33,047 nucleotides of DNA. Origin: a virus. This document shows, piece after piece, positions 5,478-22,013 of the stretch. Position 1 is the stretch's first letter. Each line of letters begins with the position of its first letter. The notes under the pieces are model-generated. The model did not search any database. It saw nothing but the letters and a program-made list of their open reading frames with translations, and was not told the DNA's origin. The position numbers and the translations under genes are program-made. Where the stretch lies: the IMG/VR virus record IMGVR_UViG_3300035125_000033, positions 1-33,047 of that record. One strand, written 5' to 3'.

Positions 5478-8400
5478 TTATTTTATTTCCATTCTGAGCA
5501 ATTGTTCTTTCCTAGTAAAAGTATCTGTTAATCTCTGCATTAGGGTTTCTGGCGTAATTTGAGTGCCATGAGACGGCACAGACAACCTGTATCTCTGTAT
5601 ATCTTTTAAAACAGCATCAGCTTGTTTACTCCCAAAACCATATCTATTAATCATGCGCCGAAATTGTGACAACAATCGTTCTCTTTGTTTATTCCAAAAA
5701 ACAGTTTGGGCTCTACGTGCTCGATAACTTTGATATCGTTTTGACGATTCTACAGGTTGAAATCCAAAGACTCCCTTTTTTACAGCCTGAAAAGTCGTAT
5801 ATTTTACAGGCTTGCCTTCATCATCTAATATTGCTTTTCCTGCTCGTGTAGTTTGCCCTTCTATTGCCAACCGTTTAGCTTTCATGGCATTAGAAAATAC
5901 CATCGGTGTAATTGGGGAATTCTCGATAGCTCTATAGATATCTCCGTTATACAAATGTTCTGTAGCTTTAATTGTGTCATCTATATATGAAAAAGGAACA
6001 CCCAAAACATCTGTTGCTCCTTCCAGAATCATAGCTCTTGGATCGTCGGAAGATAATCCATGCTGCCCAGGAATCTCCATACCGATAGAGCCACTAATAT
6101 CCACATCTAATAAAGCAGGGAGACCATAAACAATTTCATCCTCGACTTCTTCTAATCCAAACTCCTTTATTTTGCTTTTAAACCATTGTCTCGGCTGATA
6201 TCCATATCTTTGGGCAATTGATTCAAGTGTTTTCGCCAAAGGGATAGAACTAATACCACCTACAGCAACTATAGACCCTAACGCTTTCACAACAGCTTTT
6301 TTGTCTGTTCTGTTTAGAACTGCTAACAAGTTTATATAATGATGAGGGAATGTTCTAAACGTATAGGCTGAACGAGCTAATTTCGCAGGAATTGAACCGC
6401 GAAACAAACTAGGCAAATTGCTTTTTCCGTAAGTAAAGTGGCTGTCTTCTACTACCTGACCTGCCCTTTCTATGGCTTCATCGAATCCTAGTCCTTGTTT
6501 TCTAAACGCTCTAAATCCTGCTAAGAAAGTTGATTGCCGATTAAATCGTTCGGCAATTGCCATTGGCCCACCCATAATCTTTTGAACAACATTGGGTATT
6601 TTCCCATAGTTCCCAATATCACCCATTAATTCTCGAACATATTGTTCGTGGCCCCATCTTTTTTGAAGTGCAATTCGCAAAGCCTTTTGTTCCTCATTTA
6701 ATAATTGTTTTCCTTTGGGTGCATAATGAGCAACAATATCTGCCATTGCTTTCGATAACTTTGGATATGCCCACCTAGTTTCAAGGGACAATCTTGGTGC
6801 TGCTGCGATTGCGTTTTGGGTTGCATTTACAAACCCACTTTTTAAAACAGCCCCTAAATATTTATGGAAAGAAGCTGCTCGAATGCCAGAACTAATAATG
6901 TCTGTTGTGTCTGAGTTAGCCATTACATCTCGGACATATTCTTCTCCCCATCTAAATAATCGTGGTGCTTCGGCAGCAGGGATGCCTTTTTCAGATTTAT
7001 CAAATGCCATATTAACCAAAGTTTTTCTAAACTGCTGGGCAGCATCCATTTTTGTAGTATAACCGGCAAAACCATTCACATAATCATATAAAACTTTTTT
7101 TAGATTTCCCGTCTCAAACCCTTCAATAAAATTTTGGCGCGAGATTCCATGCTGCCCCCAGCCCCGTTGTTTGAAAATGTTCGCCACATTTTGTTTTAGT
7201 TCTTGTTGAATAGCTTCATCAAAGTTTTTACTAGCAACATCAATTACCTGACTGAGTGCCTCAGGGTTAATTTGAAAATATACTTCTTCTGGCAATTTAG
7301 TAACCTTGCCGCTATCAACTATTTCGTATCCTTCTTTTGCCAATTGACTTTTTATCCGTTGCCCTGCAAGCCCGGTATTAAATTGTATGCGTCTTGCTGG
7401 TTCTCCTTCTTTAATAGCCCGTACAAAATATTTTCCCGTTCGGACTCTAGGGAAATACCCTACAATGTTTCCAATTTGTTGCCTTAGTGCCATTATTTCG
7501 TCATCAGGGACTCCCATCTCTTTTATTTTTCTCCAAAAGAACGATTGAACATCGTCCAATGTTTGCCTAACAGCAGTATAAGCTTCTATCCCTCGTTGAG
7601 ACAACCCAGCTTTAGCCAGATCAACAGTATCAAAAACCTTACCTTCCTTGTCACCTAGAAGCAAAATCCTTTTAACCGCATCATAGTCTGCACCTTTCAA
7701 TTTAAAGAATGGCTCTAATCCCTCTAAAAACTGTTGCTGTAATTCAGTTCGTGCGTCTCCACGTGCCATTTCAATATCATACAATTTCTTTATTTGAGGA
7801 TACTTCTTGCTCAACCATTGAGGTATCCCAATAATTTGTTCTCTTACCTTAAGGTCTTTCCTTGTAGGAGGTTTCCACCAAACTTTGCCTGCTGTTTCTT
7901 TTATCAATCGTTGTGTGCTGTCTAAACCCTCTCGTAAGGGTAGCCCCGAATGAAAATACATTATGTCCTTTTCATCTAACATATCTTCGGCAGTGCGTTC
8001 CCACCACTGAGGATATGATCGTTGTGATTTCGCCGCAGCACGTAACACCTTAGAAGTTTCCGAAAGGTCTTGTCCCTTTAATCGAATAGTTTCTTTTGCA
8101 AGTTGTGTAAGGTCTTTTGTTTTCTCTATAGCCTCTTTCGACAAAACAGTACCAAGTCGCCGTTGGGGAACCTCTAAATCAATTGATTGAATGATTTTTT
8201 GATTTGCTTCTTGTATCGCTTTTATACGGTCTGTCGGCTGGGCATGTTTAACTGGTAATATTCGTTCTGTATTACCCTTAACAGTTTGGTTTATGATCTT
8301 TTGATTTCTTTGAGCAACAGAAAGATCAGCAGGATGAGTTAAATCGTCAAATAGCTCATCTATATATTGTTGATTTTTTACTTGCCTTTGTTGGATAGCT

Positions 8401-8840
8401 GTTTTTGTTTTCCCAGTTATTAGGTTTTCCATTATGTTTTGCGCCGATTGTTGTTCTAACGACTTAATTGCTTTTCTACCAAAAAACGCAACTGCTGTGT
8501 TCCCACCAATGGTCCAATCTAGCAATTTAGTAAATTCCAGAAAGTTTTGCTGGCTTCGTGCTTCAGCAGGCATTGCTTCTGCAAGCTTGCGGCCCTCTTC
8601 TGTCATATATTGATAAAATGGTATTAATCGAGTTACAAACCGACCAACATGCTCATACCATGATTTTTCCGGCTCGGCAGTAATGGTTCCATACTTTTGT
8701 GCTCTATACTCATCTCGGAATGAAGTAAGCGGTCTGGTATTATGGGCATAGTTAAACCCTAACGATTGACCGCCTATAGCATATCGTTTCTTGTTTTCTG
8801 GCTCTATAGGAACAGCACCAACAGCGTATTGCACCATCAT
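5478..8840 (-). CDS. Large polyvalent/ejection protein, PLxRFG-like
   Basis: At 1120 residues this is the longest gene. It is largely helical and charged, with a hydrophobic Gly/Ala/Val segment near residues 850-870 (ALGSIVAVGGISSIPLA). Two stretches match what I know of the large phage polyvalent proteins carrying the PLxRFG region: VGYFPRVRTGKYFVRA near 460, and IVYGLPALLDVDISGSIG near 900-915. In short-tailed phages the gene in this place, downstream of tail and small internal proteins, encodes an internal virion protein that is ejected with the DNA and may line the trans-envelope channel. Such proteins can also carry effector domains; none is obvious here. The start overlaps the upstream stop (ATGA), with a GGAG just upstream. 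Confidence 0.6.
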   Translation of the reverse strand: MMVQYAVGAVPIEPENKKRYAIGGQSLGFNYAHNTRPLTSFRDEYRAQKYGTITAEPEKSWYEHVGRFVTRLIPFYQYMTEEGRKLAEAMPAEARSQQNFLEFTKLLDWTIGGNTAVAFFGRKAIKSLEQQSAQNIMENLITGKTKTAIQQRQVKNQQYIDELFDDLTHPADLSVAQRNQKIINQTVKGNTERILPVKHAQPTDRIKAIQEANQKIIQSIDLEVPQRRLGTVLSKEAIEKTKDLTQLAKETIRLKGQDLSETSKVLRAAAKSQRSYPQWWERTAEDMLDEKDIMYFHSGLPLREGLDSTQRLIKETAGKVWWKPPTRKDLKVREQIIGIPQWLSKKYPQIKKLYDIEMARGDARTELQQQFLEGLEPFFKLKGADYDAVKRILLLGDKEGKVFDTVDLAKAGLSQRGIEAYTAVRQTLDDVQSFFWRKIKEMGVPDDEIMALRQQIGNIVGYFPRVRTGKYFVRAIKEGEPARRIQFNTGLAGQRIKSQLAKEGYEIVDSGKVTKLPEEVYFQINPEALSQVIDVASKNFDEAIQQELKQNVANIFKQRGWGQHGISRQNFIEGFETGNLKKVLYDYVNGFAGYTTKMDAAQQFRKTLVNMAFDKSEKGIPAAEAPRLFRWGEEYVRDVMANSDTTDIISSGIRAASFHKYLGAVLKSGFVNATQNAIAAAPRLSLETRWAYPKLSKAMADIVAHYAPKGKQLLNEEQKALRIALQKRWGHEQYVRELMGDIGNYGKIPNVVQKIMGGPMAIAERFNRQSTFLAGFRAFRKQGLGFDEAIERAGQVVEDSHFTYGKSNLPSLFRGSIPAKLARSAYTFRTFPHHYINLLAVLNRTDKKAVVKALGSIVAVGGISSIPLAKTLESIAQRYGYQPRQWFKSKIKEFGLEEVEDEIVYGLPALLDVDISGSIGMEIPGQHGLSSDDPRAMILEGATDVLGVPFSYIDDTIKATEHLYNGDIYRAIENSPITPMVFSNAMKAKRLAIEGQTTRAGKAILDDEGKPVKYTTFQAVKKGVFGFQPVESSKRYQSYRARRAQTVFWNKQRERLLSQFRRMINRYGFGSKQADAVLKDIQRYRLSVPSHGTQITPETLMQRLTDTFTRKEQLLRMEIK

Positions 8841-11535: not shown

Positions 11536-11757
11536 CTATGTTATGTCCCCGAACTCATCCCAACTGCCTGTGTAACCATAAAACAAATCGGTGTCTGAAT
11601 CGTAATACATTCTTCCCTTCTCATCATCTGGACTATTGGTCCTTGGACTGAACCGCACACTTTGAAACACAGGGTTTTGGAGAAACTCCCATACTTCTTT
11701 CATCCATAAAAGCATTTCGTCTGTGTCCACCCCTGAAGGCGGCGGAGACAAATTCAT
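11536..11757 (-). CDS. Small tail-region protein, function unknown
   Basis: The 73-residue protein has a Pro-rich start, a short helix with Trp/Met (MLLWMKEVWEFLQN), and a beta end (GRMYYDSDTDLFYGYTGSWD, about 48-67) of the kind often repeated in phage fibre and spike proteins. The ATG overlaps the stop of the propeller gene (TAATG), with GGGAGAG just upstream, so it is coupled to that gene. It may be an attachment or adaptor peptide for fibres; this is an inference from text and position. Confidence 0.45.
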   Translation of the reverse strand: MNLSPPPSGVDTDEMLLWMKEVWEFLQNPVFQSVRFSPRTNSPDDEKGRMYYDSDTDLFYGYTGSWDEFGDIT

Positions 11758-13358
11758 TAGTACTCTCCCTGATCCGTGTATCTAAATTCTATCCAATTGA
11801 CTTGAAACCTTTCACTCGCAGCATCAGTCTGCCATTTAATTTGATGTCCTCGATTAGTCTGATTTAGGTAGAACACAGGATCGGCGGGACTGTTATGGGA
11901 GAGTGTCCCCAAAGAAGTCCAGTCAGCATTAATTATCTCGCCGACAGTATCTCCTCCGCGATAAGAGATATGAATATCAAAGTTACCGGATTGACAAAGG
12001 CCAAACCACAACTCGCAAAGTGTGCTCTTCCGCTTACCTGCCAGCCAGAGGATAGGTTCTACCCGATAGCCGTCAAGTGCTCCACCTGCTATGCCTTCGC
12101 TACCGTGCGTGTAAAGATGACCGTCGGTAAAAGCGTATACAAGCCGTTGACGCTGAGAAGAGTAATATGCCCAAGTACGCGCTCCTGCATCACTCCAGGT
12201 TGCAGTTGCTCCTAGTTCTGTTATCAAACCATTCCATGTATAATCAGGATAGGCAGACCAGTTATCAATATAGCGCATAGCCTTATCTTCTAGCTGCCAC
12301 TGACCGTTTTCAAGGTTATAGAACAGAATATGAGTAGGCGTAACTTCTCCTTCCATTGGGACTGCCCATGCGAGTTGATTTGTAAGTGGCACAAAAGTTC
12401 CGACTATCCTGCCATAATATGCGGAATTAATAGACTGAAGGTCACTCTCTATGTCGTCGCTGATTGGTTGAAGCTGGTTGCCACCGTTGTAAACACAAAA
12501 GCCATAGTTCTTGTTAAACAGCGCATGATATGTGCCCATGTTAATAATAGAATGATGCCCGACACAGCCTTGGGTAGGAACAATAGTATATGCCCGAAAT
12601 GGCGTATCGTAATCGGCAAGATAGGCTAGTTGATGAATAGAATCTTCACTGTAGATAAACATCTTATTCTGGCCCATCTTTTTACCGCCAGTAATGGGGT
12701 CGTCATTCGGTATATATAACTGGTCAGCCGCTTGAAATTCACAATCAGAAGTTGGGGTTGGCAAAATAGCACCAGCGTCCGTAGTGGCCCACCTGATTTC
12801 TATGTCCCCGTTAGTCTGGTCAGAGTATAGCCCGATGATTCTGTTCATGAAATATTCGAGATACCGAAACTTGTACTCTGTACCTGCGCTTACTAGCTTG
12901 GCGGCGTTAGCATCCCCATTGCTCCAAGCATAGGGCGTGGTGCCATCATCCCTGTCGGCAAACACAACATACGATCCTACCCTGATAGCCGAAACTAAAT
13001 CCCCATCTCCAGTCTGGTGCGTAACGCCTGATGCAGTCTTGTCCTGTGGGTCTTTAGCAGAGTCGTACACATAGAACTTGCCGTTGTCCCAGAAGCAAGA
13101 GTCTCGATTAACTCCATCGTACAGCTCAAACAATCCGAGACATTTGGTAGCCTGTGCGGTTGCGGAATTCGACCAGGCGGCACGGCCATAAGATTTCGTA
13201 CAGGCATTTCTGGTCCTGCGAAGATCGAAGTTAAGGCCGCCCACGTCATGAACAGCAAATACATTCTCCCCTATCTGCTTGAACAGACTACTGTCATCCT
13301 GTGGCACATCTACTTTCCTGCCCAAGATTGGCAGTATTTTTAACTCACGAAAATTCAT
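11757..13358 (-). CDS. Beta-propeller-like tail protein (hub/nozzle or DNA stabilisation)
   Basis: The start is set at the ATG at 13358, giving an ATGA overlap with the adaptor gene; a TTG six bases earlier is also open. The 533-residue protein is beta-rich throughout. It shows the loosely repeated aromatic/Asp pattern of propeller tail proteins, such as DSCFWDNGKFYVYDS, KMFIYSEDSIHQLAY and HILFYNLENGQWQLED. Short-tailed phages encode such a protein right after the adaptor: P22 gp10 (packaged-DNA stabilisation) or T7 gp12 (nozzle). The order portal, adaptor, propeller fits. Which of the two it matches better cannot be told from the text. Confidence 0.6.
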   Translation of the reverse strand: MNFRELKILPILGRKVDVPQDDSSLFKQIGENVFAVHDVGGLNFDLRRTRNACTKSYGRAAWSNSATAQATKCLGLFELYDGVNRDSCFWDNGKFYVYDSAKDPQDKTASGVTHQTGDGDLVSAIRVGSYVVFADRDDGTTPYAWSNGDANAAKLVSAGTEYKFRYLEYFMNRIIGLYSDQTNGDIEIRWATTDAGAILPTPTSDCEFQAADQLYIPNDDPITGGKKMGQNKMFIYSEDSIHQLAYLADYDTPFRAYTIVPTQGCVGHHSIINMGTYHALFNKNYGFCVYNGGNQLQPISDDIESDLQSINSAYYGRIVGTFVPLTNQLAWAVPMEGEVTPTHILFYNLENGQWQLEDKAMRYIDNWSAYPDYTWNGLITELGATATWSDAGARTWAYYSSQRQRLVYAFTDGHLYTHGSEGIAGGALDGYRVEPILWLAGKRKSTLCELWFGLCQSGNFDIHISYRGGDTVGEIINADWTSLGTLSHNSPADPVFYLNQTNRGHQIKWQTDAASERFQVNWIEFRYTDQGEY

Positions 13359-14077
13359 ACCCAATAGTACGGGTCTGTTATCCCGCCCTGTGTGTCCTTC
13401 TTATATTGAGGCACAAACTCCACTGGCTCGTCTGCTCGATTCAAGTCAGCGTCTATCAACTTTTCTATCCAGTACATAGCATTGCCAGCAGCGGCCTGAG
13501 CTTTCGGGGATAGCTGTAAGCCTGGCAAAAGCCGATGACATTCTTGAAGGCAAACACAGACAATAGCATGAAACCCGAGCATGTCCGGTACAAAGCTGTG
13601 GGAAGCATCATCATCCGCAAACGTTCCATGGTATTGCTGATACCAAGCACGAACAGTCACGGTTTCGTCCAGTTGACAATTGAATAAAAATGTGTTGCCA
13701 ACCCTGGTATAGTGCCTTGGCTTACCGTCGGTGTTGCCGCTATAACTAATGTACCTGTATCGGTCATGAAAGTCCCGCTCGGGCAAGTAATGTATCCGTG
13801 CATTCTCGCCAGTACTAGACTTTATCCATTCAAGAAACAGGACTTCTTTAATATTGGTAAACGAAAAATCGGATTCGGCAATGCTATACTCATCAGCAGT
13901 CACATCATGTGTTGCTGGCGTGGTTGCGCGCAGATAGGAAAAATTGTGCATACCACTAATGTGCTCCGCTGCCAGGTCTATCAAGTTATCAACAGACGTA
14001 TCATGGCTGGTAACGTCAAGATTAGGAATATATGCCTTCAGTTGAGCAATAATGTCAGTTCGTGTCTTATTCGCCAT
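13355..14077 (-). CDS. Head-tail adaptor protein
   Basis: The 240-residue product begins with a helical segment (IIAQLKAYIPN, then DNLIDLAAEHISGMHNFSYL). It has a beta middle part with FLEWIKSSTGENARIHYLP, and then VRAWYQQYHGTF before a final helical stretch (about 170-215). This helix-beta-helix plan with an early WI/YLR-type motif is typical of phage adaptor proteins that dock under the portal (P22 gp4 or T7 gp11-like). It lies immediately before the propeller protein and overlaps it by four bases, as expected for a connector. It overlaps the upstream gene by 11 bases, with a GGAGAAG ribosome binding site inside that gene. Confidence 0.55.
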   Translation of the reverse strand: MANKTRTDIIAQLKAYIPNLDVTSHDTSVDNLIDLAAEHISGMHNFSYLRATTPATHDVTADEYSIAESDFSFTNIKEVLFLEWIKSSTGENARIHYLPERDFHDRYRYISYSGNTDGKPRHYTRVGNTFLFNCQLDETVTVRAWYQQYHGTFADDDASHSFVPDMLGFHAIVCVCLQECHRLLPGLQLSPKAQAAAGNAMYWIEKLIDADLNRADEPVEFVPQYKKDTQGGITDPYYWV

Positions 14078-14438: not shown

Positions 14439-14674
14439 TACTTACCTCCGTCCTTTTGCGTTGCCCTGGTAATCCAAGGCATATTCTCATCTAACCTTGC
14501 CAATATAGTCTTCAACTGCTCATAGATACTTTCTACAAGCATTCTCGTATCCTGAGGCGGGTTGCCAACCTCGCCACCACCAGTTACACCAGAAGAAACG
14601 TATCTGGGATCACCTCCTTCTGCATCTGGCAGCACGGTCATTCTTACTCTTTTTGTGAATGTTTGGCCGTCCAT
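14438..14674 (-). CDS. Small virion-associated protein, function unknown
   Basis: The 78-residue product begins MDGQTFTKRVRMTVLPDAEG, has a Gly-rich loop and ends in a short helix (ESIYEQLKTILARLDENM). It is the first tail-side gene after the glycan cassette. A strong ribosome binding site (AGGAGGG, six bases before the ATG) lies inside the 3' end of the GT9 gene, and the two frames overlap by 65 bases. This suggests the virion gene is original and the GT9 reading frame reads into it. No function can be assigned. Confidence 0.5.
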   Translation of the reverse strand: MDGQTFTKRVRMTVLPDAEGGDPRYVSSGVTGGGEVGNPPQDTRMLVESIYEQLKTILARLDENMPWITRATQKDGGK

Positions 14675-15635
14675 TGTAAACCCTCCTAATAGTATCGATT
14701 AATACTCCTGGTGCTGGGGATTCCGTACACTTTGGATACCCCAAGTCGTTGAGTTGGCAATGATTGCGCCATATACCCCTGTATTTATGAAGCAGATAAC
14801 AGGGGCTACAGTATGTGTCGGCTTGGATAGAGTAATCGTTATACCAATGTTTTGTAAGATTCTGCTTGCTACTGTGTGTAAGAAAACAAATCTTTGGGGT
14901 TTTAAAGCAACCAGCCGCATTAAGTAAACCCGTTTCGGGACCAAGAACCAAATCAGCATACTTCGCAAGAGCTGCCGAATACCTGAAACTCTTCTCAAGC
15001 TGAGGTAAATTAATGACTCTTTCGTGCTCAAAGGTGAGAAGCTTGCCCTGGTAGTTGGCTGTCGGGATGATAATCGAGTCTTTAAACTCGTCCAGCACAC
15101 GCCTAGCAACGATTTCAAAATATCGGTACACCTTTTGCACAGATGAACCAAACAACGCCCACAGGATAATAAAAGCCTTTTTGTGCTTTCGTCTAAACTC
15201 CTTGGCAATTCGCTTTTCCTCTTGGCTGAAATACAGCTCTCCAAGAGGTCTGTTCGGCTTATATCCTGCCTTGGTAATTTGGTTGTCATACCAGTTTACG
15301 CCCTTGCTTTGTTTTCTCTTCCAAGCCAAGCATTTATAATATTCCGGCTGCGGGAAAGCAAAGATATAATTGTTTTCCATCGTGCCTGTAAGGTTAACAA
15401 CCTTATCAAACCCTTTCCCGACATTTGCCCAATGCTCATCTAAGTTCTCCGAGTCGATGCTACCATCCACATGCGGCATTGTATCGTACACATACGGATT
15501 GTATCGCAGCATATCCAAAACATTCTGACTAGCATTGATTGTAATCCTGTAACCATCTTTTGCCAAATACGGTAATAACGAGCTAGCAATAATTCCGTCA
15601 CCTAATGCTCCATTCAATAGCGGATGACTACACAA
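14610..15635 (-). CDS. GT9 glycosyltransferase, apparently frameshifted at its start
   Basis: This frame encodes a glycosyltransferase family 9 (ADP-heptose:LPS heptosyltransferase-like) protein: NGALGDGIIASSLLPYL near the start, DLVLGPETGLLNAAGCFKTP near residue 233-252, and a Cys-containing end. GT9 enzymes move heptose or related sugars onto lipid-linked glycans in the cytoplasm. The open frame can only start at TTG 15635, with poor context. A well-placed ATG with GGAGGG upstream (15646-15644) reads MAKTCVVIRY and then hits TGA at 15616-15614; the normal GT9 start is ...VIRYGALGD, so the true N-terminus seems to be split by a one- or two-base shift near 15617. The last 20 codons overlap the next gene. 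Either a broken gene, a sequence error or recoding. Confidence 0.7.
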   Translation of the reverse strand: MCSHPLLNGALGDGIIASSLLPYLAKDGYRITINASQNVLDMLRYNPYVYDTMPHVDGSIDSENLDEHWANVGKGFDKVVNLTGTMENNYIFAFPQPEYYKCLAWKRKQSKGVNWYDNQITKAGYKPNRPLGELYFSQEEKRIAKEFRRKHKKAFIILWALFGSSVQKVYRYFEIVARRVLDEFKDSIIIPTANYQGKLLTFEHERVINLPQLEKSFRYSAALAKYADLVLGPETGLLNAAGCFKTPKICFLTHSSKQNLTKHWYNDYSIQADTYCSPCYLLHKYRGIWRNHCQLNDLGYPKCTESPAPGVLIDTIRRVYNGRPNIHKKSKNDRAARCRRR

Positions 15636-15671
15636 GTTTTAGCCATCCGCCTTTTCCCTCCAATTTCCTTA

Positions 15672-16310
15672 TCATACATGAAGAAACACTCTGCCGTCCT
15701 TGATAACATCTTTGTCTTTATCTGGCCTAGCATAGCCACTTGGCGTTTCGCCTAGTTGCTTTCCAATTTCTTTAACCGTATCTATGAACCTTTCGTTAAG
15801 GTCTTCGTATTTAACATACACAATTCTTTCTCTATAAAGACTGGCATTCCAACCAGCCACATGCGCCCAGTGCTTGTCCGTCATAGTTTTGTACTGCTGA
15901 TACTGATGTCGCAACATTCCCCCTACAGGCATTGATTCGGCAAACTCTTCAGCGGTTTCGCATTTTGGCCCTTCCAACCAAGGGAGACCATTTATGTGTT
16001 TACGATAACTTTCCATTACATCTTCAGGATTGCGGTAAATGTAAAAGACAGTATACATTTCCATGATTTCAGATAGCTTAGTCTCAAAAAACTCCACATC
16101 ATGATGGCTCTTGACAAAAATAGGTCTGCTGTCCTTCTGATGAAACTTCCGCAATAAATCTAGCATGTTCCCAGCAACATAAAGATTATACGCAATGGGT
16201 TCCAAGCTGATATATTCCCCCTTCCCTGCATACCCGAAGTTCATGCTCAGCGTATTAATAAGAAAGTGGGTGCCTGACCTTGGGAAACTGACCACCAGTG
16301 CTTTTTTCAT
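15672..16310 (-). CDS. PAPS-dependent sulfotransferase
   Basis: The 212-residue protein has the hallmarks of a carbohydrate or small-molecule sulfotransferase. The 5'-phosphosulfate loop SFPRSGTHFL is at residues 8-17, a Lys-Ser-His (67-69) sits where the catalytic Lys/His lies, the 3'-phosphate signature IYRNPEDVMESYRKH is at 91-105, and YVKYEDL follows at 165-171. Such enzymes transfer sulfate from PAPS to hydroxyl groups, often on sugars. It is somewhat short: the C-terminal RKGxxGDW-type loop is not evident, so the end may be trimmed. PAPS would have to come from the host. It is coupled by ATGA to the upstream glycosyltransferase, which suggests that a transferred sugar is the acceptor. 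Confidence 0.8.
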   Translation of the reverse strand: MKKALVVSFPRSGTHFLINTLSMNFGYAGKGEYISLEPIAYNLYVAGNMLDLLRKFHQKDSRPIFVKSHHDVEFFETKLSEIMEMYTVFYIYRNPEDVMESYRKHINGLPWLEGPKCETAEEFAESMPVGGMLRHQYQQYKTMTDKHWAHVAGWNASLYRERIVYVKYEDLNERFIDTVKEIGKQLGETPSGYARPDKDKDVIKDGRVFLHV

Positions 16311-17200
16311 TGTGCAGTCACCTGCTTTATAATATCATACATCTGGTCATAGTTTTTTAGCGAATACCTATCTTCTGCCCATTGTCTATACTTGGAAGAA
16401 TCATAATCGTCGTTTTGTATAATTTGACAAGCTGATTCTACAGTGTTAAACACACACTCTTCTGGAAACTGATCGATAGCTCCAGGCCAATTATGAACCA
16501 CAGGCTTTATGCCCTTTGCCATAGCTTCTATGACATTATTAGGGTTCCCCTCACTCATCGATACAGACAAACAGCAATCCATCATATCCCACCAGCTATC
16601 GAGCATTTCAAACTTTAGCCTGCCATACCAATAGAACTTCCTGTGAGATTCATGACATATATGATTGATGTACTCTAGCAATGCCCAATCTTGGCAGGCA
16701 CCAGCCAGGTGGAGAGAGTATTTGCTAGGTAAAGCTGCTAAGACCTGTGCAGCCAACGTAAGATTCTTCTTGGGATGAATGAAACATACCATACCGATGT
16801 TGTTGTTGAACGTTCTCTCCTTGAACGTCCATTTCTTGGTATCAACAGAATTGTAGATAAGTGATGTTGGGATATTAATATCATTTTCCTTAAACCAATC
16901 TTCTACCGCCTTCTTAATAAAGCTATTTACAAACACCATATGATCTACTTTGTTCCAGTCTATTTTTCTCCACTCAGGCTCAAAAAACTCGTAACGCCTC
17001 ATATAAAAGATATTCTTGGCATTTGGAAAGTGTTCCGGTCTTGTATAGCCATTAGACCACATATGAAGCACTACATCGGGATCAAATCCGTTAACGCCAT
17101 GGATAGCAACTCCCACGGTATGCCCTCGGATTTTAAGATAGTCAGGCACTAACTTTTGCCAAGGTAGCTTCCAGTCTGGTGTTAATACAAGAATCTTCAT
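16307..17200 (-). CDS. GT4-type (GT-B) glycosyltransferase
   Basis: The 297-residue protein starts MKILVLTPDWKLPWQKLVPD and shows the GT-B plan: an N-terminal acceptor half, and a C-terminal nucleotide-sugar half with MVCFIHPKKNLTLAAQVLAA (the lysine-containing loop) and VSMSEGNPNNVIEAMAKGIK (about 215-235). The last is the classic EGNPN.V.EAMA.G.PVV motif of family GT4. It probably moves a sugar from a nucleotide donor onto a glycan in the cytoplasm. It overlaps both neighbours by ATGA (radical SAM upstream, sulfotransferase downstream), so the three are made together. Confidence 0.8.
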   Translation of the reverse strand: MKILVLTPDWKLPWQKLVPDYLKIRGHTVGVAIHGVNGFDPDVVLHMWSNGYTRPEHFPNAKNIFYMRRYEFFEPEWRKIDWNKVDHMVFVNSFIKKAVEDWFKENDINIPTSLIYNSVDTKKWTFKERTFNNNIGMVCFIHPKKNLTLAAQVLAALPSKYSLHLAGACQDWALLEYINHICHESHRKFYWYGRLKFEMLDSWWDMMDCCLSVSMSEGNPNNVIEAMAKGIKPVVHNWPGAIDQFPEECVFNTVESACQIIQNDDYDSSKYRQWAEDRYSLKNYDQMYDIIKQVTAQ

Positions 17201-17901
17201 ATCAGGTTACAGTCCTTACAGAGTCTTAAATGTTTCCCGCCACCATTCAAATGAGCATCCCGATATTCAAGATAGGCAGGAGCGTTATATATTTCGTCCA
17301 ATGGCTGACTCCTCAAATTTCCAAATACCACCTCATAGTTATAGTCAGAACAGCACAGAATAACGTCACCTTGCCAGTTGATATACAGCTTTTTGTTCGG
17401 CCAAGGGCACCTGTCCAATTTGCTTTCCCTGAACACATCCACATGCCCCGCTCTGTTATAAAAGCTAGGCATCAATGCCATAAGACCAAAATGGTTAACT
17501 TGGGGATATGTTTCATCCTCTACTTGACCTAATTCCTTAAGGTCATAATGGTTAATATATAATGTGCTGACGCCCGCCTTTAACAACCCACACACATTTC
17601 CGTCAAGCAAATCCCCATTGGTACTGAGTCGTATGTTGTTATTCGGGAACCAATACCGTATGAGTTTTACAACATCCAATATACGCTCATCACACAACGG
17701 CTCTGCCATTAAATACGGATTGATACGCCCCTGATAGCCATGCGTGTATAACTCAGACAAGACGTGATTCAATAGCTCCATCGGCATCAAGCTGTCAGGC
17801 CGTTTATCCAGCTTGCTGTTCGGACACCAAGAGCATTTACGGTTACAGTAATCAATCGTTTGAATCTGTACCGATTTGACATTTTCCAACAAAGAACTCA
17901 T
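17197..17901 (-). CDS. Radical SAM protein with SPASM-like C-terminus
   Basis: The 234-residue protein has the radical SAM cluster motif CNRKCSWC (Cys 19, 23, 26), which binds the [4Fe-4S] cluster that cleaves S-adenosylmethionine. Near the end are Cys 165, 183, 184, 228 and 231 in a SPASM-like pattern (YINWQGDVILCCSDYN, then VVFGNLRSQPLDEIYNAPAY and a final CKDC), suggesting a second iron-sulfur cluster. SPASM proteins modify peptides or sugars by radical chemistry. Its location among glycosyltransferases and a methyltransferase points to a sugar or glycan-linked substrate, but the substrate cannot be read from sequence. It overlaps the methyltransferase by 50 bases. Confidence 0.8.
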   Translation of the reverse strand: MSSLLENVKSVQIQTIDYCNRKCSWCPNSKLDKRPDSLMPMELLNHVLSELYTHGYQGRINPYLMAEPLCDERILDVVKLIRYWFPNNNIRLSTNGDLLDGNVCGLLKAGVSTLYINHYDLKELGQVEDETYPQVNHFGLMALMPSFYNRAGHVDVFRESKLDRCPWPNKKLYINWQGDVILCCSDYNYEVVFGNLRSQPLDEIYNAPAYLEYRDAHLNGGGKHLRLCKDCNLI

Positions 17902-18484
17902 AAGATGGCTTTGCTATCCTTGCATGTACGGTGTACTTTTCCAATTTTTCAACTTTAAGTTTGCAAATGTTTATCAGCACAAACAGGTCTCTGTAATCAA
18001 AACCCCAATCATACTCCTCATGGTATGATTCACCCAATGGAATATTCAGTATCACTCGTCCATCTGGTTTAAGAACACGAGATATTTCCTTATAGCCTGC
18101 AAACCTATCCTTTGGGTCCACATGCTCAAGAACGTCCAAAGCTACAACATAGTCGAACAAGTCATCATCATAGGGTATATTGGTAACATCTGCTTGCACT
18201 GCGTTCATGTGCCACATTTGTTCTACGAAATCTACATATTTTAATGACATATCCGTGGCTCGATAATTCATGGCATTCAAAAGAATAAGACGTATTGCAG
18301 CGAACGTCAGACCGCTACCAACACCTATTTCAAGAATAGACTTGTGATAGAAATCATAGTCCAATAGCCTTTTAACAAGTGCTTGACGCTTCCAAATATT
18401 ATCAAGCAAGCCACTTTCTGTGCCTAATACAGCTTTGTGTTTGGCTGCATGCTTGTCCCAATAATTAACAGCTTCCTGCTGCAT
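17852..18484 (-). CDS. Class I SAM-dependent methyltransferase
   Basis: The start is set at ATG 18484; a TTG one codon earlier is also open. The 210-residue protein has motif I (ILEIGVGSGLTFAA, near residue 50), an acidic end of motif II, DYVVALDVLEHVDPKDRF (near 110-127), and RVLKPDGRVILNIPLGE, all typical of Methyltransf_11/25 enzymes. The substrate is unknown; by context it may methylate a sugar or a glycan-linked group, giving a cap. It overlaps the upstream glycosyltransferase by 20 bases and the radical SAM gene by 50, an arrangement common in compact late operons. Confidence 0.8.
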   Translation of the reverse strand: MQQEAVNYWDKHAAKHKAVLGTESGLLDNIWKRQALVKRLLDYDFYHKSILEIGVGSGLTFAAIRLILLNAMNYRATDMSLKYVDFVEQMWHMNAVQADVTNIPYDDDLFDYVVALDVLEHVDPKDRFAGYKEISRVLKPDGRVILNIPLGESYHEEYDWGFDYRDLFVLINICKLKVEKLEKYTVHARIAKPSYEFFVGKCQIGTDSND

Positions 18485-19532
18485 CAATCGTATCCTTATA
18501 TAGCTGCTCTATCTCCCCTAAATGGCTTTCCATAGAAAACCTTTGCCTGTTAGTAATCAGCTTCTTGCGTATATCTCGATGTTCTCTCCATCTTTCGGTC
18601 AACTCTGGTAAAGATTCTACGCTTAACCCAACTTCGTGCTCGCTCACAAACTCTTCAGACCACTTAGCGTTCATGGCTACTACCGGAACAGCAGCAGCTA
18701 TATATTCGAACATTTTATTGCTGGAAGTCTTAGCCCACTGGGTTGTAGGAAAAGTATTACCCACTAATCCCCAGTCGTGCTTTGTGAGGTTTTTAAGCAC
18801 ATCCATAAAGGAACAAGGCTGGTGAACAAAAGCAACGTCATCAAAAGTAGCATGGAAATCTTTATCAGTACGAATGGTATAAATATGAAAGTCCAGCCCA
18901 AGGCTCTTAGCCTCTTCTGCAAGACCTTGGTATTGGCAATATTTGAATCCGTAGTTACTATTCGTGTTTTCTTTTTCAAGTGACACCTTTCCTTGATAGA
19001 CTAACCCCCCTTGCCACTCATAGCATCTGTATCTAAACAATCCGCTGGGCACATAGCTTGGAATAACAGCATAAGGCTGAGTTAAATTATACTCTTTACA
19101 AACATCATCACGAACGTAATTACTAACGAAATTAAGGCCGTCTGCAAGTTGAAAGTTAGTATGCTCATCTACGGTATATCGAGTGACCTTATTTTCGTTA
19201 TTATTAGCCTTTTCAAGTTCTTCTTGAGTTGTTCTGGTTAGATATGTATCGTGGATATCAAGTAATACAGGCTTATTACAGACCTCTTTAATCATAGTAA
19301 CAAACCACGATGGTTCATTATGCACATGAAATATGTCAGCATGACTGGCATGAAGCTTTATGGCTTCGTGCAGATTTTCCAAATCATTACACAATGAAAC
19401 AGACGTAAACTTGTCTCTCATAGTAGGTAACTTCAAGCAAACCAAATGAACGTCATGGCCCTTGTTTATCAAGGGAAGGGCAAACTTTACTACCCTTATA
19501 CAACTATGATATGAGACCATGACTATATTCAT
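18465..19532 (-). CDS. GT-B glycosyltransferase, paralogue 2
   Basis: The 355-residue protein has a GT-B layout. Conserved pieces are HVHNEPSW (69-76), LDIHD (91-95), NFQLADGL (126-133), KHDWGLVGN and then MFEYIAAAVPVVAMNA in the C-terminal half. The last is the FEYMA.G.PVV motif of glycosyltransferase family 4. It most likely adds a sugar to a growing glycan in the cytoplasm. It is a tandem paralogue of the next gene upstream: the three N-terminal motifs lie at identical residue numbers in both. The start overlaps that gene as ATGA. Confidence 0.75.
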   Translation of the reverse strand: MNIVMVSYHSCIRVVKFALPLINKGHDVHLVCLKLPTMRDKFTSVSLCNDLENLHEAIKLHASHADIFHVHNEPSWFVTMIKEVCNKPVLLDIHDTYLTRTTQEELEKANNNENKVTRYTVDEHTNFQLADGLNFVSNYVRDDVCKEYNLTQPYAVIPSYVPSGLFRYRCYEWQGGLVYQGKVSLEKENTNSNYGFKYCQYQGLAEEAKSLGLDFHIYTIRTDKDFHATFDDVAFVHQPCSFMDVLKNLTKHDWGLVGNTFPTTQWAKTSSNKMFEYIAAAVPVVAMNAKWSEEFVSEHEVGLSVESLPELTERWREHRDIRKKLITNRQRFSMESHLGEIEQLYKDTIDAAGSC

Positions 19533-20581
19533 ACAAACTGCTCGTAAAACCGTTCCAATTTAAAGATATGATTTTCCATAGCGAACTCTTGGCGGTGCTT
19601 GATAACATTGTTCCTGCATATGTCTTTTTCGTCCCATCGCTCTACCAGCTCATCCACGCTGTCTACTATGATGCCAATATTGTATTCTTGTGCTAGCCTG
19701 GCACACTCAGATGCATTCATGACAACGATGGGAAGACCAGCAGCCATATATTCAAAGAGTTTGTTAGGGAAAGCCAAGTCCCAGTTGCTACACTTGTAAG
19801 AATTACCGACTAAACCCCAGTCATGACGAGACAAAGCAATCAGAAGATTTTCTAAATCTTGCGGGTCGAATACCTTGGCAAACTGTTGTAAAGCCCGTTT
19901 GTCTTCAATTCTATTTTTACCTAGATACACATAGAAATCCACCTTGGCCTCAGAGCACGACTGTGCCAGTGGGGTATAATTAGCGTAATCAAATACCTCC
20001 ATACCCGGAACTTTAAGTCTTTCTTCGGAAACAACCAAGCCTTCATACGCCAATCCGCCAAGGTACTCTGCACCCGCATAGTTGTACCACATTTTTAACA
20101 TATAGCTCGGCATTATAAGTGCTGGCTGATCTAACCCAAACTCTGATACAACCAAGTCCTTGAACGCTTCACCTGGAAATACCAACCCATCGGCAAGCTG
20201 AAAGTTGTTGCGTTCTTCCGTAACTATCCTGCCTCTGGGGTTATCGGTTAGAAGAGATTCTTCCTGCTGTTCTGGGGTGGTTCTAGCCAAAAAGCTATCA
20301 TGAATATCCAAAACAATCGGTTTATCAGTTCGTTCTTTTAGAAATGTAACTAGCCATGATGGTTCATTATGAACATGATAAATATCGGTAGAATCGTCTA
20401 CCAACTTAATACTGTTCGAAATTTGGCTTTGATTTTCGCATAGGTGAAGTGTTCTGTGCTGTTCCCAGAATTGAGGAACGTTCTCACAAATCATGCGAAG
20501 TTGGTGACCACGCTGTATCAGGGCAACAGCCGTCTTCTGTGCCCTGACACAAGCGTGTAATGTCACCATTGTGATGTTCAT
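19529..20581 (-). CDS. GT-B glycosyltransferase, paralogue 1
   Basis: The start is set at the ATG at 20581, one base after the stop of the preceding gene; a longer open frame would run into that gene. The 350-residue protein carries HVHNEPSW (69-76), LDIHD (91-95), NFQLADGL (126-133), RHDWGLVGN and LFEYMAAGLPIVVMNA, marking a GT4-like GT-B enzyme. Motifs are at the same residue numbers as in the neighbouring paralogue, so the pair arose by tandem duplication. It is the first gene of the glycan cassette and follows a structural gene with no visible promoter between them, so it should be expressed late. Confidence 0.75.
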   Translation of the reverse strand: MNITMVTLHACVRAQKTAVALIQRGHQLRMICENVPQFWEQHRTLHLCENQSQISNSIKLVDDSTDIYHVHNEPSWLVTFLKERTDKPIVLDIHDSFLARTTPEQQEESLLTDNPRGRIVTEERNNFQLADGLVFPGEAFKDLVVSEFGLDQPALIMPSYMLKMWYNYAGAEYLGGLAYEGLVVSEERLKVPGMEVFDYANYTPLAQSCSEAKVDFYVYLGKNRIEDKRALQQFAKVFDPQDLENLLIALSRHDWGLVGNSYKCSNWDLAFPNKLFEYMAAGLPIVVMNASECARLAQEYNIGIIVDSVDELVERWDEKDICRNNVIKHRQEFAMENHIFKLERFYEQFV

Positions 20582-20582
20582 G

Positions 20583-21071
20583 TTACGGAGTATCCCATTT
20601 GCTATCGTGATAAATGGGGTGATAGTCCACAAAAAATGCCACTGAACCTGTGGTAGTGGCGGTGTTAGCCGCCGTACCTTTGTCTGTATCTGGTGTGGCA
20701 CTGTCAATGGCAATGAACGTGCCTGGTCCAACCGTTGCAGAGGTGAATGTAACAGTACTGTTAATAGTGTACTGACTCACATCTGACGAGGTATGTTTAG
20801 CGTCCAGACTCGCCTCAACGCCGGTGTCCTTATAGAGTCGTGCAGTAACCTTATCAGCACTGGTGTTGGATAGTGTTGCAAGAACCAAGCAACCGAACTT
20901 TTTCAGCTTGATCGGCCCCTTGGGATACCAGCGAACCACGTGATCCGTAGTGGTGGCATCGGTTGTACCGAATGTAAACCCGCCAGCCGAGTCACCACCG
21001 CATTTCTTGGTCAACCCAAACCAGTGACGATGAATTACGCCGAATCTTGAATCATCATAATGAGCACCCAT
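20583..21071 (-). CDS. Probable head decoration or head-associated protein
   Basis: The 162-residue protein follows directly after the major capsid gene, with a strong ribosome binding site (AAAGGAGGTGA). It is Thr/Ser/Ala-rich and beta-like, with a Cys-containing start (WFGLTKKCGGDSAGGF) and the segment GPGTFIAIDSATPDTDKGTA. There is no signal peptide. Position right after the capsid gene, small size and beta composition suggest a capsid decoration or head-fibre protein, though the family was not recognised. It is also the last structural gene before the glycan cassette, making it one candidate acceptor for glycosylation. Confidence 0.5.
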   Translation of the reverse strand: MGAHYDDSRFGVIHRHWFGLTKKCGGDSAGGFTFGTTDATTTDHVVRWYPKGPIKLKKFGCLVLATLSNTSADKVTARLYKDTGVEASLDAKHTSSDVSQYTINSTVTFTSATVGPGTFIAIDSATPDTDKGTAANTATTTGSVAFFVDYHPIYHDSKWDTP

Positions 21072-21086
21072 ATCTCGTCACCTCCT

Positions 21087-22013
21087 TTAGGCTGAATCCA
21101 GTTTTACAATGTTATTGTCAGGGTCGGCTGCCCAGAAAATCTTATAGCCTGCAATCATGTACCAGGCTAAACCCTTGGAACGACCATAGTCGGTCAATTC
21201 CTTAGGTATAACTTCCGGGGCAATGGCAAGCCCTTCTAGAACAGGGCCACCTCCTGCGCCGAAAAAGTAAGCCTCTCCATATGCGCTGGATTTACCGATA
21301 GCATTGCTCAACCCGTGATTGGTTTTCACAAATCGAGTATCGTAGAACCTACCGAACTCACCAGACGCAGGGTACTTGGTGTACTGGAGAATGCTTTCCA
21401 CATCATCGTAAATGTCCCGCTTGGACTGAGATGAGCAGATACACATATAGTTGTCACCGTCCCAAGGCTCGCACTTCATGGACTGGTACAGGTAGTCAAT
21501 GATTTCCTTGACTGCGTATGTGTCCATGCCACGAGTTGCCGTAGCCGTAGCAGTACCGTTAGTGGTAAACACGCCGGTCCCGCTCTTTGAAGACACATAG
21601 CGGATTTTACAAGCGTCAAACTGCGCTTCCACGTCTGTGTCTATCACTTTAGCATAGTCATCCTTGAGAGCGGTCACTATTGGCTGTCGTACTCCAACCT
21701 GTCCTAAGCTCTCGTATTTACGGGTAAAGGGGATTGAATTCCCGTATTCGTAAAGGGTACACGTAGACTGATAGAACCTATGGGATCTAGCCGGAATAGT
21801 ATCCGTTTCAGTCAGTGTCCCGCCCTGAGTCGAAATGTTTCCGTATTTATCAAACAGGAAGGTCTCACCTGCGTTCTTGCCCCATGCTTCACGAAGTTGA
21901 CAGAATTGATGGAATTTCATGTCCGGCTGAGCTTGCCCAACCACTTCTCGTGTTAGCAAAGGGCTGTAGAGGTAGCCTCCCTGGGTTGATGTTGCCCAGA
22001 GTTGTCCTGGCAT
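21087..22013 (-). CDS. Major capsid protein, N4-gp56/HK97-fold type
   Basis: The 308-residue protein lies directly after the scaffold gene. It shows the order of the N4-gp56-type coat family: an N-terminal arm, then FHQFCQLREAWGKNAGETFL with TLTETDTIPARSHRFYQSTC (the E-loop-like and spine-helix region), EYGNSIPFTRKYESLG, a long helix with ALKDDYAKVIDTDVEAQF, and a beta end with GLAWYMIAGYKIFWA. Such proteins form the icosahedral shell in many copies. Length is in the usual range. An AAAGGAGTG ribosome binding site precedes the ATG. I am confident of the role and less sure of the exact subfamily. Confidence 0.8.
   Translation of the reverse strand: MPGQLWATSTQGGYLYSPLLTREVVGQAQPDMKFHQFCQLREAWGKNAGETFLFDKYGNISTQGGTLTETDTIPARSHRFYQSTCTLYEYGNSIPFTRKYESLGQVGVRQPIVTALKDDYAKVIDTDVEAQFDACKIRYVSSKSGTGVFTTNGTATATATRGMDTYAVKEIIDYLYQSMKCEPWDGDNYMCICSSQSKRDIYDDVESILQYTKYPASGEFGRFYDTRFVKTNHGLSNAIGKSSAYGEAYFFGAGGGPVLEGLAIAPEVIPKELTDYGRSKGLAWYMIAGYKIFWAADPDNNIVKLDSA

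Follow-up and report, generated by a model that had tools for sequence, protein, structure and literature searches.

A variable cassette of glycan-type genes between the capsid and tail genes of an uncultured phage, with a probable role in virion glycosylation

The phage genome IMGVR_UViG_3300035125_000033, one IMG/VR virus record, 33,047 bases long and analysed here over its full length (hereafter the window), carries seven glycan-type genes between its capsid and tail genes. The gene order on the minus strand is TerL, portal, scaffold-like protein, major capsid protein (MCP), a 162-aa protein, the seven glycan-type genes, a putative tail adaptor, and more virion proteins. The MCP gene (21087..22013; phrog_1357, E 4.8e-10) marks the upstream limit of what we call the slot, and is followed by the gene of the 162-aa cement/decoration-like protein (20583..21071), so named for its position after MCP and a weak fold match. 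The cassette then comprises a GT-B glycosyltransferase (GTB1, 19529..20581, with its ATG at 20581), a paralogous GT-B glycosyltransferase (GTB2, 18465..19532), a class I S-adenosylmethionine (SAM) methyltransferase (17852..18487), a BtrN-like radical SAM/twitch protein (17197..17901), a GT4-type glycosyltransferase (16307..17200), a 3′-phosphoadenosine 5′-phosphosulfate (PAPS) sulfotransferase (15672..16310) and a GT9-like glycosyltransferase (14610..15635), all on the minus strand. Counted from the cement-like open reading frame (ORF) onward, the junctions are a 1-nt gap, overlaps of 4, 23, 50, 4 and 4 nt, and a 36-nt gap. The putative tail adaptor (13355..14077, minus strand), named from its position and kept directly after GT9 in relatives, is the downstream limit of the slot, and a virion protein (11757-13364; phrog_3287) lies in its downstream flank. 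The first-pass annotation had described seven tightly packed genes on one strand in the capsid-to-tail interval, and every ORF was recovered in its place.

The enzyme families that it had named were likewise borne out, by Pfam for six of the proteins and by profile and predicted structure for GT9. GTB1 and GTB2 share 38-39% identity; Glyco_transf_4 (PF13439) matches GTB1 at 28.0 bits, just below the curated cut-off of 28.5, and GTB2 above the cut-off (E 3.9e-10). The nearest solved relatives of GTB2 are 4w6q and the Gtf3-type glucosyltransferases, and Gtf3 acts on glycoproteins. The methyltransferase matches PF08241 (Methyltransf_11; E 6.9e-16), and the GT4-type protein matches PF13692 (Glyco_trans_1_4; E 8.3e-8) and phrog_2170. 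The radical SAM protein, which matches PF13186 (SPASM) and PF04055 (Radical_SAM), aligns with BtrN over its whole length (residues 10-233; phmmer E 4.9e-16), and all seven cluster cysteines of BtrN have counterparts in it (C19, C23, C26, C165, C183, C229 and C232, forming a CX3CX2C motif plus four auxiliary cysteines). BtrN is a dehydrogenase that oxidises 2-deoxy-scyllo-inosamine (PMC9012708) and belongs to an antibiotic cluster, whereas the phage protein belongs to a late operon; amongst SPASM/twitch enzymes similarity by itself does not predict function (PMC6231123).

The sulfotransferase belongs to the Sulfotransfer_1 family (PF00685; E 4.2e-15). Its SFPRSGT loop, His69, Arg93 and Ser101 are invariant in six phage sequences; we take these to be the PAPS loop, the catalytic histidine and the 3′-phosphate site (Arg93/Ser101), respectively. 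With its PAPS-binding motifs intact, the protein is predicted to transfer sulfate. No gene for adenosine 5′-phosphosulfate (APS) kinase, and thus for PAPS synthesis, was found in the window, so that PAPS would come from the host. The donor, which the first-pass annotation had held to be as unreadable as the acceptor, can therefore be read in part. An APS-kinase domain covering two thirds of the profile was present in two of the 46 related records (L011 and L162, in our numbering of loci), and that of L011 lies in the TerL-portal interval, adjoining a sulfotransferase.

The last protein of the cassette has no Pfam match (PF01075 included), and its assignment as GT9-like is confirmed by a profile match to 3tov (E 5e-8) and by its predicted fold. 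The predicted structure (pLDDT 89.4) superimposes on 3tov with Z 24.4 and also resembles WaaF, WaaC and TibC (Z 20.3); the GD motif (G12 D13) is invariant in 23 sequences. TibC, a protein heptosyltransferase, carries an iron finger built from four cysteines (PMC4358343). The phage protein has in common with TibC/BAHT heptosyltransferases the GT9-type GT-B fold, a catalytic-type Asp and four C-terminal cysteines (PMC4358343), which are invariant in phage GT9; it differs in that its model starts with the catalytic domain, whereas TibC-type enzymes have an N-terminal beta-barrel, and in having no autotransporter partner. The idea that the four cysteines prove the enzyme to be a TibC-like glycosyltransferase of proteins was rejected: the same pattern occurs in LPS-type GT9s of prophage-bearing genomes (6/8 checked; LPS, lipopolysaccharide) and is therefore not evidence for a protein acceptor. 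The start of the gene (15600-15650, minus strand) is unusual. A well-placed ATG with a ribosome-binding site opens a frame that reads MAKTCVVIRY, ten residues, and then runs into TAT plus a stop, while the body of the protein is read in a different frame, beginning at a TTG. L007 (8455-8520) shows this geometry too at its GT9 start (TAT, TAG, AT, GGAG), L099 has a GT9 without a usable start (about 7200-7266), and L002, which differs from the window by 3 mismatches and no gaps over 17 kb, shares the disruption. A recoding signal, decay or an artefact could each account for it.

To place the cassette amongst related phages, loci were sampled either by MCP, with at least 555 IMG/VR relatives of which 80 were kept plus ten loci from bacterial genomes, or by GTB (80 loci). 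The records are metagenomic and mostly partial; ORFs were called on all loci and labelled with profiles built on the seed proteins, so that beyond the Pfam-tested examples the labels are those of local profiles. The first-pass annotation had proposed a search for the same gene set at the head-tail position of related phages, and the slot indeed recurs there with variable content, both in uncultured phages and in prophage-like loci. In the arrangement that recurs, portal and scaffold precede MCP, which is followed by the small cement-like protein, a variable block, GT9 and the tail adaptor. The variable block holds GTB, methyltransferase, an optional radical SAM gene, GT4, and a varying complement of sulfotransferase, PIG-L deacetylase, hexapeptide acyltransferase and Gfo-Idh dehydrogenase. 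The 268 kb on the downstream side of MCP contain 78 glycan-family ORFs, the 373 kb upstream contain 3. Of 45 distinct loci, 29 have GT9 no more than 2.5 kb from MCP, and GT9 is present in all 11 complete MCP-to-adaptor intervals; MCP lies within 1.8 kb upstream of GTB in 39 of 62 distinct GTB loci; and wherever both glycosyltransferases occur GTB comes first and GT9 later (33/33). The next labelled gene after the sulfotransferase is GT9 in five of six loci. In phages with other capsids (L014 and L015), too, a small capsid-adjacent protein is followed by genes of the radical SAM, GT2 and methyltransferase families.

In uncultured relatives and proteobacterial prophages a GT9-like enzyme usually occupies the slot, and a large subset of loci has the expanded form. 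The slot can be as small as GT9 alone. Nine of the ten loci from bacterial genomes (one is cut by a contig end) have a methyltransferase-GT9 fusion as their minimal form; these loci come from Paraburkholderia rhynchosiae WSM 3937, Paraburkholderia sp. C35, and metagenome-assembled genomes named Polaromonas, Nevskia, Sulfuricaulis, Accumulibacter, Geobacteraceae and others; the cultured Paraburkholderia carry intact prophage-like loci. Content turns over fast, differing even between phages with an MCP 65-76% identical to that of the window: methyltransferase, radical SAM, sulfotransferase and GT9 in L020 (MCP 76%); GT9 only in L022 (69%); methyltransferase, radical SAM, an unlabelled ORF and GT9 in L024 (66%); and GTB, deacetylase, acyltransferase, an unassigned GT-like ORF, methyltransferase and two GT9 in L003 (65%). 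The gene set had initially been called unusual. That is so relative to 50,697 isolate phages, which gave no match for GTB2, the sulfotransferase or GT9 and one for the radical SAM protein (L019, MT835743, positions 5834-6550, an unannotated human faecal scaffold and the sole INPHARED record with a relative); it is not so in uncultured phages, where the slot occurs in dozens of genomes.

Several other arrangements were observed at or near the slot. The first ORF after MCP in L085, L091, L092 and L115 reads by eye like an HNH or GIY-YIG endonuclease at the slot entrance, and the content of the slot could be exchanged through homing. In L007 (7048-7797) and L021 the slot includes a ParB-like ORF (PILVATNGQRLDGFKRYMAFKELGY, by eye) that adjoins GT9. 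More distant phages have a second glycan slot in the TerL-portal interval (L011, 5572-11121; L162; L010, 5750-9599) with GTB, polysaccharide-deacetylase-like and methyltransferase genes; the APS-kinase domain of L011 stands there beside a Sulfotransfer_3 protein.

The small protein after MCP is found in nearly all loci, always next to MCP in the relatives. That of the window is 24% Ser+Thr and has an all-beta predicted structure (pLDDT 71.5), which is matched best by a capsid chain of cyanophage Pam1, at a near-background Z of 8.2; the cement protein of phage KHP40 is another match, likewise near background. Set beside podoviral jelly-roll cement proteins, the position of the gene next to MCP fits and the fold match is near background; the protein is a putative capsid cement protein.

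An indication of a partner comes from pairwise distances amongst the 35 phages that have MCP, the cement-like protein and GTB. Distances of the cement-like protein correlate closely with those of GTB (r 0.82, Spearman 0.76), those of MCP less so with GTB (0.40, Spearman 0.31) or with the cement-like protein (0.49, Spearman 0.50). Given MCP, the partial correlation of the cement-like protein with GTB is 0.78 (0/2000 permutations, which treat related phages as exchangeable); given the cement-like protein, that of MCP with GTB is 0.00. The effect persists within both subtypes (0/2000 and 2/2000 permutations), and amongst the loci sampled by MCP, all 4 GTB-positive ones have the YPxGP subtype and none of the 63 GTB-negative ones does. 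Linkage by itself cannot explain how recombination parted MCP from the cement-like protein yet spared the link between the latter and GTB. Because this co-inheritance is tighter than that of the other adjacent pairs compared (scaffold-MCP 0.43, GTB-methyltransferase 0.39), the cement-like protein is the leading candidate for the glycan acceptor, and the acceptor, initially considered unreadable, is thus narrowed to a candidate. Just four positions (Thr66, Ser105, Thr141 and Ser143) reach at least 80% Ser/Thr, too few for an acceptor site to be called.

Promoter-like sites between 13.0 and 23.2 kb are as frequent as in shuffled sequence (18 found, 18.0 ± 4.2 in shuffles), as are terminator-like sites (7 found, 8.1 in shuffles), so that neither a promoter nor a terminator inside this stretch is conspicuous, with the proviso that consensus scans can miss one. 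This agrees with the earlier remark that the cassette has no visible promoter of its own. On the observed gene content, position, conservation and variability of the slot, its enzyme families and active-site motifs, and the co-inheritance of the cement-like protein with GTB, we consider it reasonably probable that the slot is a late-expressed, modular virion-glycosylation slot with host PAPS as the sulfate donor. Operon expression, acceptor, order of steps, sugar identity, sulfation and biological role are parts of the scheme that we infer. The slot genes would probably be transcribed with the head genes and be largely translationally coupled. GTB1, duplicated as GTB2, would most likely start or build a glycan on the adjoining cement-like protein; GT4 and the near-constant GT9 could extend it or work on a second site. 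The methyltransferase may O-methylate the glycan, the BtrN-like enzyme may oxidise (or epimerise) a sugar hydroxyl, and the sulfotransferase would add a sulfate cap from host PAPS. The decorated cement-like protein would then assemble onto the capsid, with other virion proteins perhaps decorated too, and the glycan would most plausibly serve particle surface charge, adsorption or shielding. The late, virion-directed product proposed in the first-pass annotation is strengthened by the conserved slot and by a GTB that follows the cement-like protein and not MCP; its sulfated or methyl-capped nature is still a prediction.

Some observations weigh against virion glycosylation. The slot is free of glycan genes in isolates whose capsid is related (Escherichia PTXU04, HelliStehle and Vibrio 234P8), which makes the module dispensable and means that these isolates offer no experimental handle. 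The cement assignment combines position with a weak fold match, the reading frame of GT9 is disrupted at its start, and the relatives of GT9 act mostly on LPS. GT9 is also not co-inherited with the cement-like protein (0.21) and may thus act on another target. The last two points suit an alternative in which the enzymes act late in infection on a polysaccharide of the host surface (LPS, O-antigen or capsule) and so keep progeny from re-adsorbing or prevent superinfection, as do enzyme families that the cassette shares with LPS and capsule clusters and a GT9 model that is nearest to 3tov, WaaF and WaaC. We regard this as rather unlikely: the cassette is fixed between capsid and tail genes, GTB tracks the cement-like protein and not the remainder of the phage, and no polymerase, flippase or membrane acceptor enzyme was noticed in the window. 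The first-pass annotation had held that its reading would fall if the homologues all proved host-borne in LPS operons; most relatives found lie in phage structural operons, in scans that covered mostly viral contigs and sampled the host side less.

A change of the host surface in lysogens would accord with the minimal slot in prophage-like loci of Paraburkholderia and others; with the genes inside a late operon, promoter-like sites not above chance, and no integrase match among the window proteins scanned, such lysogenic conversion seems very improbable. Glycan genes might also pile up at a tolerant insertion site as neutral or selfish cargo with no virion role, as the high turnover between related phages and the endonuclease-like ORFs that some loci have there would allow. 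The conserved catalytic residues, the fixed gene order, the near-constancy of GT9 and the non-random pairing of cement-like protein with GTB make this improbable. Glycosyltransferases that hypermodify phage DNA are known (Pyle 2024, cited in PMC12619734), and the enzymes might glycosylate or otherwise modify DNA bases. Thymidylate synthase/hydroxymethylase (PF00303) occurs in 0/37 records, with positive controls, and TET/JBP in 0/37 in a search that had no positive control, the records in both cases being incomplete; the cassette is moreover linked to structural and not replication genes. DNA modification was rejected as a role for the cassette, with no supporting gene in the records searched, and we give it scarcely any credence.

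Virion glycosylation by phage-encoded glycosyltransferases has precedents. Mycobacteriophages encode virion glycans (Che8-type cluster F1; Freeman 2023, cited in PMC12619734 and PMC11256854), and in Rhodococcus phages that carry a glycosyltransferase and a methyltransferase virion glycosylation is suspected (PMC13313380). The actinobacteriophage systems have phage-encoded glycosyltransferases as here, with methyltransferases in some (PMC13313380), and the mycobacteriophage glycans are demonstrated on capsid and tail-tube subunits, whereas the system of the window is known from its genes. Maravista has its glycosyltransferase genes close to the 3′ end of its genome, in contrast to their place between capsid and tail genes in the window, and the sulfotransferase, BtrN-like and other tailoring genes are additions of the window cassette. 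Bacterial O-antigen and capsule clusters use the same enzyme families, whereas the phage cassette sits in a late operon at a conserved site. In a literature search that covered mainly freely available papers, we found no description of the slot, of sulfotransferase/BtrN-like tailoring in such cassettes, or of co-inheritance of a cement protein with a glycosyltransferase.

Elsewhere in the window, a 1120-aa protein (5478-8840, minus strand) without a Pfam match resembles in its C-terminal part the ends of giant phage proteins (phrog_11358; phrog_10089, DarB-like). The 3.2 kb between 28430 and 31650 hold no convincing long ORF, and GC skew flips sign there. Repeated units in this region resemble a ribosome-binding site plus start (AGGAGGTGAAAAGACAATG, GGAGGCAAACATGACAAG) and are perhaps an array of tiny early genes on the plus strand. 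An Rfam scan of the window gave no match, and no tRNA was found in it.

On a wider view that we hold tentatively, widespread uncultured phages and prophages may share an exchangeable capsid-glycan module. A cement protein and the glycosyltransferase dedicated to it would pass between phages as a pair, and variable tailoring (sulfation, radical-SAM oxidation, methylation, N-deacetylation/acylation) would give each phage a specific, sometimes sulfated surface; an APS-kinase-like gene stands beside the sulfotransferase in some relatives. If this is true, it would offer an acceptor and an enzyme pair that can both be tested, as well as sulfated or radical-oxidised glycans, a kind of glycan that we did not find described on phage particles; the Paraburkholderia prophage-like loci with a minimal slot make the model directly testable. 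Virion glycosylation would then not be peculiar to actinobacteriophages: it would be common among abundant uncultured phages, and quick to change.

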